DNA of 49,402 nt. It comes from a virus. The notes beneath the pieces were generated by a model. The model saw nothing but the letters and a program-made list of their open reading frames with translations. It was not told where the DNA came from and did no database searches. Every line of letters begins with the position of its first letter. The first letter of the stretch is position 1. Below, piece after piece: positions 3,724 through 47,640 of this stretch. A program made the position numbers and the translations under genes. The stretch spans positions 1 to 49,402 of the IMG/VR virus record IMGVR_UViG_3300033388_001954; one strand, 5' to 3'.

Positions 3724-4302
3724 ATGAAGCAGCACCCCACCCCTTCCTTCACCTTCGATGCTGACCGTTACGAGGGTACTGCCATTACGGCTAACTGCGT
3801 TCCCCATAAGAAGCTTCTCGTGATTGGTGACGCACCCACTAAGGCTCAGCAGTTCTCCCACTACTTACGCCGCTATGGTTGCGCAGCCGACTCAGTGATG
3901 TCCATCAATAGGGGAGTATGGGGCTTATCGGTTGAGGCTGATTACCTAGCCACAATGCATTGTGATAGTGGCATCCTGAGTACCCTGATCGACATTAAGA
4001 AGTTTACTGGCAACCCTACTGTGATTGGCTATCGCTGTAATGGTGATCAACATAAACGTGTTACCCACATCGTTGATGGTAGTCACATGCATGGGACTAG
4101 CAGCCTGCTAGGCGTATTGGCAGGCCTCGTAATGGGTTACGGCTCCATAGACCTAGTGGCGGTAGACATGCTTCCTGAGACTGGTTACGGTAGCCCTAAT
4201 AAGCTAGAAGCATGGGAGGTATGGGCACCTTACTTTGAGGGGCGGGTTAAGAGCTTTCAAGGTAGTTTGGTAGATATGTTAAAGCCTAGAGAGGTATCCT
4301 AA
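3724..4302 (+). CDS. Hypothetical protein, possible Rossmann-type fold (192 aa)
   Basis: Residues 31-50 (Leu-Leu-Val-Ile-Gly-Asp-Ala-Pro-Thr-Lys) look like a nucleotide-binding beta-turn-alpha opening. Later strands (Thr-Val-Ile-Gly-Tyr; Ile-Asp-Leu-Val-Ala-Val-Asp-Met) are spaced as in alpha/beta folds such as the DUF115/sialyltransferase-like phage proteins. His residues cluster at 110-130. AAGGATT precedes the ATG, and the stop TAA overlaps the next ATG (TAATG at 4300-4304). Function unknown; the fold suggestion is weak. Confidence 0.6.
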   Translation: MKQHPTPSFTFDADRYEGTAITANCVPHKKLLVIGDAPTKAQQFSHYLRRYGCAADSVMSINRGVWGLSVEADYLATMHCDSGILSTLIDIKKFTGNPTVIGYRCNGDQHKRVTHIVDGSHMHGTSSLLGVLAGLVMGYGSIDLVAVDMLPETGYGSPNKLEAWEVWAPYFEGRVKSFQGSLVDMLKPREVS

Positions 4303-4514
4303 TGGAAAAGATCGACACCATAGAGCATCACTTAGCAGCCCTCATGGAGCACTTCGACGTAGTCCAGGTGTTAGCCTGCAGCCATGACGGGAGCGCTAAC
4401 AGGACTACCTCCTACTGGTCAGGTAGAGGTAACATGTATGCCAGGCAAGGCCTAGCTGTAGATTGGTTGGATCGCCTGGAAGACAGCAAAGAGGAGGGAA
4501 GAGAGAATGTCTAA
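4302..4514 (+). CDS. Hypothetical protein (70 aa)
   Basis: Starts inside the stop of the previous gene (TAATG), so it is translationally coupled. An amphipathic N-terminal helix (Ile-Glu-His-His-Leu-Ala-Ala-Leu-Met-Glu-His-Phe) leads into a Ser/Arg/Tyr-rich middle and an acidic-basic C-terminal helix. The next gene overlaps its last 8 bases. No family was recognised. Confidence 0.6.
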   Translation: MEKIDTIEHHLAALMEHFDVVQVLACSHDGSANRTTSYWSGRGNMYARQGLAVDWLDRLEDSKEEGRENV

Positions 4515-4860
4515 GAAGATTATATTACCGGACTCCTACTACTTCACAGCAGCAGAGGTGGATGGCCATGACTTGGTTAACTACCTCAACGCACAGCTAG
4601 CCCATCGCTATGCCTTCCATCATGTTGATAAGGTTAGTAATACCATGATGCTTATTTTCTTGGTAGACAAGGAAGCAGACCCAGCTTTTAGGACTACCGA
4701 TAGCGAAGCTCTCCTACAGGTGCAGTGGCATGATAACTTCTCAGTTAAGGTAGTGGGGGACCTCATCCTGTCGGAAGGCGTCACCTCTGTGGTTGTCCAT
4801 GGCGAGGATTCCATTGAAGTCATTAGCGGTAACCAGAAAGGTCGCAAGGAGGTAGTGTAG
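4507..4860 (+). CDS. Hypothetical protein (117 aa)
   Basis: Overlaps the previous gene by 8 bases, with GAGGGAAGAGAG before the ATG. The protein alternates short beta strands, several strongly hydrophobic (Met-Met-Leu-Ile-Phe-Leu-Val; Val-Thr-Ser-Val-Val-Val-His), with charged turns and has no cysteines. A small soluble all-beta or alpha/beta protein is likely. No family was recognised. Confidence 0.6.
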   Translation: MSKKIILPDSYYFTAAEVDGHDLVNYLNAQLAHRYAFHHVDKVSNTMMLIFLVDKEADPAFRTTDSEALLQVQWHDNFSVKVVGDLILSEGVTSVVVHGEDSIEVISGNQKGRKEVV

Positions 4861-5643: not shown

Positions 5644-5729
5644 GGTGTCATGGCTGAGTGGTCAAAAGCGTCGGACTGTAAATCCGATCCCTTTAGGGTG
5701 CGATGGTTCAAATCCATCTGGCACCACCA
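5644..5729 (+). tRNA. tRNA-Tyr (anticodon GUA)
   Basis: The sequence folds as a class II tRNA with a long variable arm, as bacterial tRNA-Tyr does. The acceptor stem GGTGTCA (5644-5650) pairs with TGGCACC (5719-5725) with one G-U. The anticodon stem TCGGA/TCCGA encloses CTGTAAA with anticodon GTA. The T stem is GATGG/CCATC around TTCAAAT. The 3' CCA is encoded (5727-5729). It lies on the late strand between terS-region genes and the virion genes. Tyr identity is read from the anticodon. Confidence 0.95.
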
Positions 5730-5814
5730 AATAACAATGCCCTGCACGCCTCTCAAAGAAGCGCACCCTGCGGGGTCACTCTTTTATCATAACAACCACA
5801 GAGGTAACACCCTA

Positions 5815-30985: not shown

Positions 30986-31543
30986 CTACTTCTCCTCTCT
31001 ATGGTTTTTCAGTAGCCTTTTAACTGATTCTTGTAGGTTATGGACAGTAGTCCCACTACAGCGCATCTGCTTGGCGGTCTCCCGATGGCTGTAACCATAA
31101 GCAAAACGCAGCTCAACCACTTTACGATGTCTGCTAGTTAGGTGCTTCTCTATGTATTGCAGCAGGTCTTCGTTGCTGTACTCTATGATGGCCTCATCTA
31201 CTGGCTGCTGACTGTCGGGTATCCCATCAAGGTTGAGTGATCGACGCTGCCTTTTTTCCTCCCTAACAATGCGCCGTGATATATTTCTCTTGAGTGACTT
31301 CGTGAAGTAGGTCCGAAACTTGGTGCGACCTTTGCGATAGTTCTTGACGCAGGTATTGAAGGCCTCCAGGAAGGCGTCCATGCAGCTGTCATCACCGTCT
31401 TCAGGTTGTAGCCTCCTTAAGGCCTTACCCTTTTCCCTCAGGAAAATAAACCACATCTGCTCCATAAGAGTACCATAGGACTCATCATCCTTACTGGCGG
31501 CTGCAGCTAAGGTATTTTGTTCTTCTGCTGATAGTATCTTCAT
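30986..31543 (-). CDS. Sigma-70 family factor (first of two)
   Basis: 185 aa when started at the ATG at 31543, which has AGGTGG at a good distance and an ATGA overlap with the upstream gene; the longer start (31570) is rejected. Region 2 lies about 55-95 (Met-Asp-Ala-Phe-Leu-Glu-Ala-Phe-Asn-Thr ... Lys-Phe-Arg-Thr-Tyr-Phe). Region 4 is at 135-180 (Ser-Arg-His-Arg-Lys-Val-Val-Glu-Leu-Arg-Phe, then a helix-turn-helix). It would direct host RNA polymerase to phage promoters. It is distinct in sequence from the second factor at 44613. Confidence 0.88.
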   Translation of the reverse strand: MKILSAEEQNTLAAAASKDDESYGTLMEQMWFIFLREKGKALRRLQPEDGDDSCMDAFLEAFNTCVKNYRKGRTKFRTYFTKSLKRNISRRIVREEKRQRRSLNLDGIPDSQQPVDEAIIEYSNEDLLQYIEKHLTSRHRKVVELRFAYGYSHRETAKQMRCSGTTVHNLQESVKRLLKNHREEK

Positions 31544-31731
31544 GGTGTTGCCACCTTCTTTTTTAGGCACAACTTACAGGTTACGTTCTTCCAGTTCCTT
31601 GCAATGTAGTAACGCTTGCCTCCCCAATATGCTCTTGGTCCACCACATAGTGACGTTGGCCTCCATTCCTTCTGACCAAAACCCAAGTAGTGTTCAACCT
31701 TTCTTTTGTAGTCTCCCTTATGTATCCTCAT
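31540..31731 (-). CDS. Small CxxC protein (63 aa)
   Basis: Basic protein ending in Cys-Lys-Leu-Cys-Leu-Lys-Lys-Lys and carrying Cys-Gly-Gly at residue 29, a likely half zinc finger. The ATG overlaps the upstream stop, and its own stop overlaps the sigma factor start (ATGA), so it is coupled to both. Could be a partner of the sigma factor, but this is unproven. Confidence 0.6.
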   Translation of the reverse strand: MRIHKGDYKRKVEHYLGFGQKEWRPTSLCGGPRAYWGGKRYYIARNWKNVTCKLCLKKKVATP

Positions 31732-36030: not shown

Positions 36031-36336
36031 CTAACAAAACTCCCTATCGCAACTATCATAGAAGGTGTGATGCTGGTAACTTTCAAATTCATGTACTTTC
36101 AGGTCTGCTGAATTGTAAATTATATTAAGGAACAAACCGATGGTAACATCCGTCCCCCACTCATCTACGATGCCTTCCGACATGGCGATTGGGATCAAAT
36201 CCTCCAGGTCTTTGATCTTATCGCTAGTTTTCAGTAAGAATCTCCAACCGCAGGAGGACTTACCAATGTGGGTATCCTCATCGCTATGGCCACAGTGGCT
36301 GCAGGTATCCGCTTTCAGGTAGTAGTTAGTGGACAT
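36031..36336 (-). CDS. Conserved phage zinc-site protein (101 aa)
   Basis: Met-Ser-Thr-Asn-Tyr-Tyr-Leu-Lys-Ala-Asp-Thr-Cys-Ser-His-Cys-Gly-His-Ser with Gly-Lys-Ser-Ser-Cys-Gly-Trp (28-34) is a pattern I know from a conserved phage protein family of unknown function. Two Cys, two His and a late Cys pair could bind one metal. A helix with Asp/Glu-rich turns follows. Strong GAGGAG lies before the ATG. Confidence 0.65.
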   Translation of the reverse strand: MSTNYYLKADTCSHCGHSDEDTHIGKSSCGWRFLLKTSDKIKDLEDLIPIAMSEGIVDEWGTDVTIGLFLNIIYNSADLKVHEFESYQHHTFYDSCDREFC

Positions 36337-36857
36337 TAGGGGGTCTCCTCGTTTATTGCAGCCAGCGCAGCTGCTAGTTCTCTATTCGCAAACCATGCTA
36401 TCTTTCTCAAGTCTCTCACCTTATCGCTATGACCACAGTTACCTAACCGATAGGTAGCCTTAAAGATGTTGCCTACCGCGAAGTTCATAGCACGATACTC
36501 GATTAAGTCCTGTAACTCAGATGCGTTAGTGGGTAGGGCGTACTGTGATGGGGTACTGCCTCCTGGCTCTTCCTTCCATTTAACGTCAGGGAGCTGCACC
36601 TTTTGGTAGACACCCTCCGTGGTGATGTTAGCTTCAACGAATTCAAGATCATCTAGTACGGAGCGAGGCTTATCATGTGTTAGTATGTAGGCTTCTGCTA
36701 GTTCTGCCACCTTGCCTTCGATAACTTTAACACTACATCCATTATCTTCACTGCTTCCGCAGTATATCCGCAGCGCATCAGGGCAGAGGTGACACCGCAT
36801 ACCACTACACTCACCACCATTATCTACCAACATCTTTGCTGCTGTTAACTTATCCAT
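36336..36857 (-). CDS. DUF3310-like nucleotide-pool protein (173 aa)
   Basis: The C-terminal half, Ile-Glu-Tyr-Arg-Ala-Met-Asn-Phe-Ala-Val-Gly-Asn-Ile-Phe-Lys-Ala-Thr-Tyr-Arg-Leu followed by Asp-Leu-Arg-Lys-Ile-Ala-Trp-Phe, is close to DUF3310 (phage SaV-like nucleotide kinase domain). The N-terminal half is a Cys-rich knuckle (Cys at about 17, 22, 25, 33) joined as an extra module. A role in nucleotide metabolism is possible. The preceding gene is a deoxyribosyltransferase-like protein. Confidence 0.65.
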   Translation of the reverse strand: MDKLTAAKMLVDNGGECSGMRCHLCPDALRIYCGSSEDNGCSVKVIEGKVAELAEAYILTHDKPRSVLDDLEFVEANITTEGVYQKVQLPDVKWKEEPGGSTPSQYALPTNASELQDLIEYRAMNFAVGNIFKATYRLGNCGHSDKVRDLRKIAWFANRELAAALAAINEETP

Positions 36858-44259: not shown

Positions 44260-44613
44260 CTAACTTACGTATGCTTTCAGGGCTGCTAATATGGTGGACT
44301 CTGAGAACTCCTTGCCGTTAATGGTGACGGTTTTTTCTGGTACTACCTCCTGAGGGCGTTCCCAGAGGAGGTCGCCTGTTTCTTTCTTGTAGAGGTCGTA
44401 TGCCTTGGGGCCTTCATAAACCTTAACAATGTCAAGCGTGTGGTCGCCACAGCAAATTAGATCCTCTTCAAAAAACTGTAGCTCACAAAATTTACCATGA
44501 AAACCACACAGGGAACCAGTAAAGCTAGTGCCATTCATGGTTTCCAGGTACAGGTAATGGTTACCCGCCCGATTCTCTAATACCATCCCCTGTTTCAAAT
44601 CACTTTTCTTCAT
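44260..44613 (-). CDS. Hypothetical protein with VTINGKE-type tail motif (117 aa)
   Basis: The end Lys-Thr-Val-Thr-Ile-Asn-Gly-Lys-Glu-Phe resembles tail sequences in paralogue 1 (Val-Thr-Val-Asn-Gly-Lys) and paralogue 3 (Val-Thr-Met-Asn-Gly-Lys) of the MKxYHxW family. A Cys-Gly-Phe-His-Gly-Lys-Phe-Cys and Cys-Cys-Gly-Asp-His segment may bind metal. The start overlaps the sigma factor stop (TAATG). Function unknown. Confidence 0.55.
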   Translation of the reverse strand: MKKSDLKQGMVLENRAGNHYLYLETMNGTSFTGSLCGFHGKFCELQFFEEDLICCGDHTLDIVKVYEGPKAYDLYKKETGDLLWERPQEVVPEKTVTINGKEFSESTILAALKAYVS

Positions 44614-45191
44614 TACGCGATCTCCCTTAGTTTTTCTACTGCTTTGTTGTAGCGCTTTAACGCGCCATTCTTACTGATTGATAACATATCGCCAATCTGC
44701 TGGAAGGTCAAGTCTTTCAGCCGTAATTCTACTACTTTTCTTTGGGGTGCTGACAGGAAGGATAAAAGGTGGGGAATGTCCTCTCTGTGGGCGGGCATTA
44801 CTATTAGGTCTGACATTGTTATCTCCGTGATGCCTGTTAGTTGTAGTTCAATTACGTCATCTGATGATATTGTGGTAGTGTCCCGCTTCCCCCGGGTGAC
44901 TGCTACCTTTTGGTGGTAGTCCCCTAACCTTCTCCTTGCTGCTGCCTTCAGGAAGGTGGCGACACCGCAGCCTTTTCGCTCGTCATAGTTCTTGATGGAT
45001 GATAACATAGCGGTAACCGCGATAGCGATGGCGTCATCATGCTCTATTGCCCACCACTTCGTAACCTCCTGCTTGATAAGTGGTACCATACTTTCTATTA
45101 ACAGACCACAAGCGTCTGTGTCCCCCTCCTTGGCGAGTACCACCACCTCCTGTTGCTGGGTAGTAGTTAGCGTTCTGCAATTATCCCACAT
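44613..45191 (-). CDS. Sigma-70 family factor (second)
   Basis: 192 aa. Region 2 is at about 40-95 (His-Asp-Asp-Ala-Ile-Ala-Ile-Ala-Val, Asn-Tyr-Asp-Glu-Arg-Lys-Gly, Ala-Thr-Phe-Leu-Lys-Ala-Ala-Ala-Arg). Region 4 is at about 140-190 (Pro-Gln-Arg-Lys-Val-Val-Glu-Leu-Arg-Leu, Thr-Phe-Gln-Gln-Ile-Gly-Asp-Met-Leu). It differs substantially from the first factor at 30986, so they may act in different phases. Both are in the leftward arm but 13 kb apart. The ATG lies 4 bases past the previous stop. Confidence 0.87.
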   Translation of the reverse strand: MWDNCRTLTTTQQQEVVVLAKEGDTDACGLLIESMVPLIKQEVTKWWAIEHDDAIAIAVTAMLSSIKNYDERKGCGVATFLKAAARRRLGDYHQKVAVTRGKRDTTTISSDDVIELQLTGITEITMSDLIVMPAHREDIPHLLSFLSAPQRKVVELRLKDLTFQQIGDMLSISKNGALKRYNKAVEKLREIA

Positions 45192-46304: not shown

Positions 46305-46730
46305 TTATTGTTTTGCTAGTCTGTCATATAAAATAACATTTACGGTTGCTGCTAAATTCATGCAGCCACTTGTGGGGATGTATACCCTATCTCGGCACCA
46401 GTCGGTGATGCGGGAGCCTAGCGTTGCGTCCTCCCCGCCAAAGATGTAGAAAGCCCTTGCCGGGTGCTGATACTCAGGTAGTGGTGTAGCGCCTTCTATG
46501 AGGTCCACAGCTACAGGCACGCAGTCGAAAGGTAAAACCTCACGAAGGTTAGATGGCCTAAAGAATGGTAAGTGCCGATAGCTGCACATAGTGTCGGTGT
46601 TCTGCCTCTTGAAGCGCTTGCCGGTAGCCGCTACGAAGGACGCATTATACACACCTGCTGCACGGAGTGCTGCTCCTACGTTGACGTCAAACTTAGGGTT
46701 ATCTAGCCCGATTCCGCAATATCCTCTCAT
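46305..46730 (-). CDS. SPOUT-family RNA 2'-O-methylase (TrmH/TrmL-like)
   Basis: 141 aa, the size of minimal SPOUT methylases. Motif 1 is Asn-Pro-Lys-Phe-Asp-Val-Asn-Val-Gly-Ala-Ala-Leu-Arg-Ala-Ala (11-25), motif 2 is Phe-Gly-Gly-Glu-Asp-Ala-Thr-Leu-Gly (97-105), and motif 3 is Ile-Pro-Thr-Ser-Gly-Cys-Met-Asn-Leu-Ala-Ala-Thr-Val-Asn (118-131), forming the knotted SAM site. Members methylate ribose at tRNA wobble positions (TrmL) or rRNA. The target of this one is unknown. Rare in phages to my knowledge. Confidence 0.82.
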   Translation of the reverse strand: MRGYCGIGLDNPKFDVNVGAALRAAGVYNASFVAATGKRFKRQNTDTMCSYRHLPFFRPSNLREVLPFDCVPVAVDLIEGATPLPEYQHPARAFYIFGGEDATLGSRITDWCRDRVYIPTSGCMNLAATVNVILYDRLAKQ

Positions 46731-46984
46731 TTCTTCACCTTCTCTACTTTATTGTTGTTGCATCCAAAGCGGTGGCAAGTTAAGGTACCGTCATCGCCAT
46801 CTTCCCATACTCGTCGGTTACTGCCACAGGTGCTGCAGGCTGGTAACGCCAGGTCCTGGTGGCATTCCTCGCAGTAGTTATCACCTTCATAGGTGAGGAT
46901 GCTGTCGTTACCGCAGCCACAACAGGGTGGCGGGTCCGGTAGCCAATAGTCGGGATGCTCCATTATGATAGGTGGTCCATACAT
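46727..46984 (-). CDS. Double zinc-ribbon protein (85 aa)
   Basis: Cys-Cys-Gly-Cys-Gly (20-24), Cys-Glu-Glu-Cys (38-41), Cys-Ser-Thr-Cys-Gly (50-54) and Cys-His-Arg-Phe-Gly-Cys (70-75) form two four-Cys sites. The stop overlaps the SPOUT gene start (ATGA). AAAGGATAA precedes the ATG; an in-frame ATG at 46963 is possible. Coupling to the SPOUT methylase hints at a partner role in RNA binding. Confidence 0.6.
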   Translation of the reverse strand: MYGPPIIMEHPDYWLPDPPPCCGCGNDSILTYEGDNYCEECHQDLALPACSTCGSNRRVWEDGDDGTLTCHRFGCNNNKVEKVKK

Positions 46985-47552: not shown

Positions 47553-47640
47553 TGGTGCGAGAGGCGGGACTCGAACCTGCAGTGGCCCATAATGGCAAGT
47601 AGCGACCTTGCCGGGTGCTTCTCCATTAAGCTACTCTCGC
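47553..47640 (-). tRNA. Irregular tRNA-like gene, anticodon uncertain
   Basis: On the minus strand GCGAGAG (acceptor, 47640-47634) pairs with CTCTCGC (47563-47557), followed by discriminator A and encoded CCA. A regular 4-bp D stem GCTT/AAGC and a T arm GCAGG-TTCGAGT-CCCGC (one A-C mismatch) are present. The middle is irregular: a 6-bp hairpin GGCAAG-GTCGCTA-CTTGCC sits inside a flanking CCC/GGG pairing. If the 7-base loop is the anticodon loop the anticodon reads CGC (Ala), but base 37 would be T. A different fold could expose GCC (Gly). Total 88 bases. Confidence 0.6.

Follow-up and report, generated by a model that had tools for sequence, protein, structure and literature searches.

A conserved SpoU-class RNA methyltransferase subfamily carried by phages

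On the minus strand of the window (the whole virus record analysed here, 49,402 bases), an open reading frame (ORF) of 141 codons is, judged from its sequence, not a chance ORF and encodes a conserved SpoU-class enzyme. In our best explanation, to which we assign a probability of about 0.6, the product would be a minimal SPOUT homodimer that 2'-O-methylates the ribose of an RNA used in translation, tRNA being the likeliest. The features discussed below are as follows.

46305..46730, minus strand: predicted gene for a minimal SPOUT (SpoU-class) RNA 2'-O-methyltransferase, 141 amino acids, ATG start; called from PF00588, AlphaFold and VIA-align
46659..46697, minus strand: motif 1, residues 12-24 (PKFDVNVGAALRA), containing N17 and R23, the putative catalytic residue
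46605..46622, minus strand: basic loop GKRFKR, residues 37-42, aligned to the DKRLRR loop through which E. coli TrmL binds tRNA
46419..46451, minus strand: motif 2, residues 94-104 (FYIFGGEDATL), with G98 and E100
46320..46379, minus strand: motif 3 and putative knot (residues 118-137, IPTSGCMNLAATVNVILYDR), containing N125 and the signature of the subfamily, CMNLAA-VNV-LYDR
46727..46984, minus strand: Cys-rich, double zinc-ribbon-like ORF, 85 amino acids, with weak, sub-threshold zinc-ribbon matches; a neighbour, with no partnership implied

Conservation of the methylase

In a Pfam profile search, PF00588 (SpoU_methylase) matched residues 7-135 with an E-value of 3.1e-12 and 47.2 bits, against a curated cut-off of 29.7 bits. 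Motifs 1, 2 and 3 of TrmH and TrmL, which the sequence-only reading had seen in this gene, were all present; motif 1 also includes G19, and motif 3 includes P119 and C123-M124-N125. That reading had staked its case on conservation of the motif residues in relatives, and in our alignment N17, R23, E100, P119 and N125 were invariant in 73/73 phage representatives. The same held for G98 and for L126, A127, D136 and R137. N17 and R23 are found in E. coli TrmL, TrmJ, TrmH and RlmB as well. The five invariant residues named first correspond to residues that matter in TrmH (Asn35, Arg41, Glu124 and Asn152; PMC5372735). The Ser of motif 3 was replaced by Cys in 99% of the phage representatives. Close phage relatives differed with a dN of 0.18-0.26, and their synonymous sites were saturated, so that no dN/dS ratio is given.

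Predicted fold and the possibility of an rRNA target

An AlphaFold model of the methylase, built from eight family members, had a pLDDT of 86.2 and a pTM of 0.84, and it gives the protein a SPOUT fold. Compared with solved SpoU enzymes by VIA-align, it matched over nearly the full chain with Z scores of 16-20: AviRb 20.0 (over 140 residues), RlmR 19.5, RlmB 19.2, archaeal TrmJ 19.1, TrmH 18.9, Pseudomonas aeruginosa YibK 17.9 and E. coli TrmL 16.9-17.2. These differences are too small for the fold to choose a substrate. In a viral structure library, the only good matches to the model were two giant-virus proteins.

The three highest scores belong to 23S rRNA 2'-O-methyltransferases, with which the model shares the SPOUT catalytic domain. 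They would fit an rRNA methylase comparable to RlmB, AviRb or the thiostrepton-resistance methylase, which during infection would tune the ribosome or shield it. We consider this unlikely. TrmH, TrmJ and TrmL tie with them to within about 2-3 units; AviRb, RlmB and RlmR are only about 20% identical to the methylase and are longer, with an additional N-terminal domain that the 141-residue protein lacks, while its basic loop resembles that of TrmL. Because of the missing domain and the TrmL-like loop, tRNA is a somewhat likelier substrate than rRNA.

Relation to TrmL

The sequence-only reading had raised TrmL (YibK), the tRNA Cm34/Um34 2'-O-methyltransferase, as a model, and the methylase shares with it the minimal SPOUT architecture, the catalytic residues and an aligned basic loop. 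A phage copy of TrmL, methylating the wobble ribose of tRNA-Leu, would account for these likenesses. In TrmL, tRNA binding was lost or weakened when any of eight residues (R20, K42, R43, R45, R46, R59, R104 and R129) was changed to Glu (PMC3763551). Six of the eight positions are basic in the aligned methylase: for example, K42, R43, R45, R46 and R59 align with K38, R39, K41, R42 and R58. The equivalents of R104 and R129 are A102 and G122. Among the phage sequences, R39 was present in 97% and position 42 was basic in 74%; of the TrmL-aligned basic positions only R23 and R39 were nearly invariant, and the others vary.

Against TrmL identity, the TrmL equivalog model TIGR00185 gave the methylase 15.3 bits, far under its cut-off of 190.6 bits, and the predicted fold is no nearer to TrmL than to RlmB, AviRb, TrmJ or TrmH. 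The motif 3 Ser to Cys change and the two missing arginines are further differences. In addition, the nearest chromosomal relatives, a sister family described below, coexist with TrmL: 23 of the 24 genomes carrying that family had a separate TrmL match, 15 of these above the curated cut-off and the rest at 166-190 bits. On the model score and this coexistence we rejected TrmL orthology, and we hold a phage TrmL acting on tRNA-Leu to be very improbable. With six of the eight residues aligned as basic and two not, the methylase may still contact tRNA much as TrmL does while being a different enzyme.

Neighbouring genes

The ATG start of the methylase shares an ATGA with the TGA stop of the zinc-ribbon-like ORF, which confirms the overlap proposed earlier. 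This immediate adjacency would suit a two-gene module in which the zinc-ribbon protein supplies RNA binding. Overlapping starts are frequent in phage operons, though, and a relative of the ribbon ORF was found neither in the 83 other phage neighbourhoods of the family nor in viral contigs scanned with short peptide patterns, which detect close relatives only. A Cys-rich ORF lay directly upstream of the methylase at 2/84 loci, the window included. We therefore rejected the partnership and find such a module scarcely credible. The earlier description of a SPOUT RNA methylase coupled to a zinc ribbon thus holds for a SpoU/TrmH-class methylase in a phage, and is not supported for the coupling.

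A link to tRNA genes fared no better. The tRNA-like gene noted near 47.55 kb was found as tRNA-Ala(cgc) at 47553-47640 (minus strand, 41 bits). tRNA genes occurred within 6 kb of 7/81 family loci versus 3/80 control loci (the surroundings of the unrelated phage gene phrog_757), counts too small to be called different. Among the relatives checked first, seven had no tRNA gene. The tRNA-Ala(cgc) itself has an odd layout: additional unpaired bases precede the anticodon stem, the anticodon is followed by a U, and the variable region is long. About 1 in 6 shuffled sequences fold at least as well. The gene may be non-functional as a tRNA.

Conserved neighbours gave no functional hint. With the methylase itself and its antisense frames excluded, the largest shared neighbour cluster was present at 9/84 loci. 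Nor does the family follow a common phage lineage: the portal protein of the window was matched in only 3/50 family phages, and an integrase was found in 9/50, many of the contigs in both counts being partial. No integrase match was seen in the window. Since neighbours, portal and integrase are rarely common to the loci, the methylase is carried by many unlike phages.

Distribution and phylogeny

Pattern scans found relatives in at least 116 viral contigs and in at least 574 stretches of bacterial genomes; the family was present in 19/229 sampled genomes of one class. The PHROGs library had no match to any of eight family members. With these 116 or more viral contigs coming from many phage types, the subfamily is common among phages, and PHROGs assigns it no family. 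Our literature search found no paper on it.

The best chromosomal relatives, at about 57% identity, were in Pseudomonas, Stutzerimonas, Vibrio and Photobacterium. They belong to a sister family annotated as SpoU-class 'RNA methyltransferase', also seen in Pseudoalteromonas, whose full-length identity to the phage protein ranges from about 57% (Pseudomonas, Vibrio) to about 45-53%. The sister family has the same CMNLAA-VNV-LYDR signature as the phage copies, but it forms a separate clade and mostly lacks the phage basic residues at positions 52, 53, 92 and 113. We found no paper on its target. In the careful tree, the chromosomal copies formed one clade with support of 100/98, and all phage copies fell outside it. 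In a quick tree that used outgroups from E. coli, the phage copies formed a clade with an SH-aLRT of 98, which included L085 and L086, two contigs from bacterial assemblies. The root placement differed between trees: the E. coli outgroup splits phage from chromosomal copies, whereas a nearer outgroup roots among the phage copies. A recent capture of the gene from a host appears unlikely given the clean split of the chromosomal clade from the phage copies, but the trees root differently and could fit either direction of transfer.

The positions of R52, H53, R92 and R113 were basic in 89-97% of the phage sequences versus 14-27% of the chromosomal sequences. This clade-specific difference, read from the alignment, could form a phage-specific RNA-binding surface.

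More distant phage-borne SpoU methylases are the TrmH-family genes of WXIN (Mycobacterium; 34% identity) and of Trina and NiceHouse (Rhodococcus; 27-28%). Their proteins are longer, branch outside the clade of the family in the tree and are encoded near RNA-repair genes.

In the uncultured phage LR756511.1 (595 kb; L181), a 43%-identical methylase at 3938-4532 spans two frames, owing either to a broken gene or to a sequence error.

Proposed function

The predicted chemistry of the methylase is ordinary. By analogy with TrmH and TrmL, it would work as a homodimer, with S-adenosylmethionine held in the trefoil knot that motifs 2 and 3 build in one subunit, while R23 of the opposite subunit activates the ribose 2'-OH. 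The later steps are less certain. The substrate would be a host or phage translation RNA, most likely tRNA, perhaps bound through the basic loop 38-42 together with the phage-specific R52, H53, R92 and R113, and methylation might keep this RNA functional or resistant during infection. The specificity of SPOUT enzymes is not predictable from sequence or structure (PMC3763551).

In another explanation, the mark would counter host defence: 2'-O-methylation removes the nucleophile of metal-independent ribonucleases, so that it could block cleavage by host RNA-cutting defence, whether anticodon or other nucleases. The gene is widespread, mobile and present in unrelated phages, and RNA end-repair genes occur close to more distant homologues in phages (a polynucleotide kinase in WXIN, an RNA ligase in NiceHouse). 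This hint of coupling to RNA repair was not borne out: an RNA ligase was found in just 3/50 phages, family phages only being counted. Sister copies also sit on bacterial chromosomes, and PADLOC gave no defence family match. Taken together, we judge counter-defence decidedly improbable as the explanation. A bolder version adds the phage-specific residues: a phage-specific ribose methylase subfamily with its own RNA-binding surface would have spread among unrelated phages by protecting translation RNA from host RNA-cutting defence, with a mark unlike those of known host enzymes. This we offer as speculation that is rather unlikely to be right.

Under the preferred reading, a 2'-O-methyltransferase of translation RNA, the target, if known, would reveal which translation RNA it benefits phages to modify, and would also shed light on the sister gene that many chromosomes of Pseudomonas and Vibrio carry.

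Genome context

The plus strand of the window carries genes for the terminase, the head-tail connector and the tail, and the minus strand carries genes for a DnaB helicase and an exonuclease as well as sigma-like genes. The connector protein shares 37% identity with its counterpart in Salmonella phage epsilon15. The methylase is thus an accessory gene in the minus-strand half (replication and regulation) of a podovirus-like phage.

Several other features of the record were observed. Two different sigma-70-like proteins are encoded within its approximately 49 kb, at 30986-31570 and 44613-45191, both on the minus strand. The C-terminal part of the product of 36336-36857 (minus strand) resembles phage kinase/phosphatase families, including, weakly, a 3'-phosphatase/5'-polynucleotide kinase. 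At 5740-5776 on the plus strand, an abiF RNA (Rfam RF03085) was detected with 38.8 bits, against a cut-off of 37. Immediately upstream of it is a phage tRNA-Tyr gene (5644-5729), and no Abi protein was recognised in its vicinity. A defence-linked RNA carried by a phage in this way could serve as a decoy.
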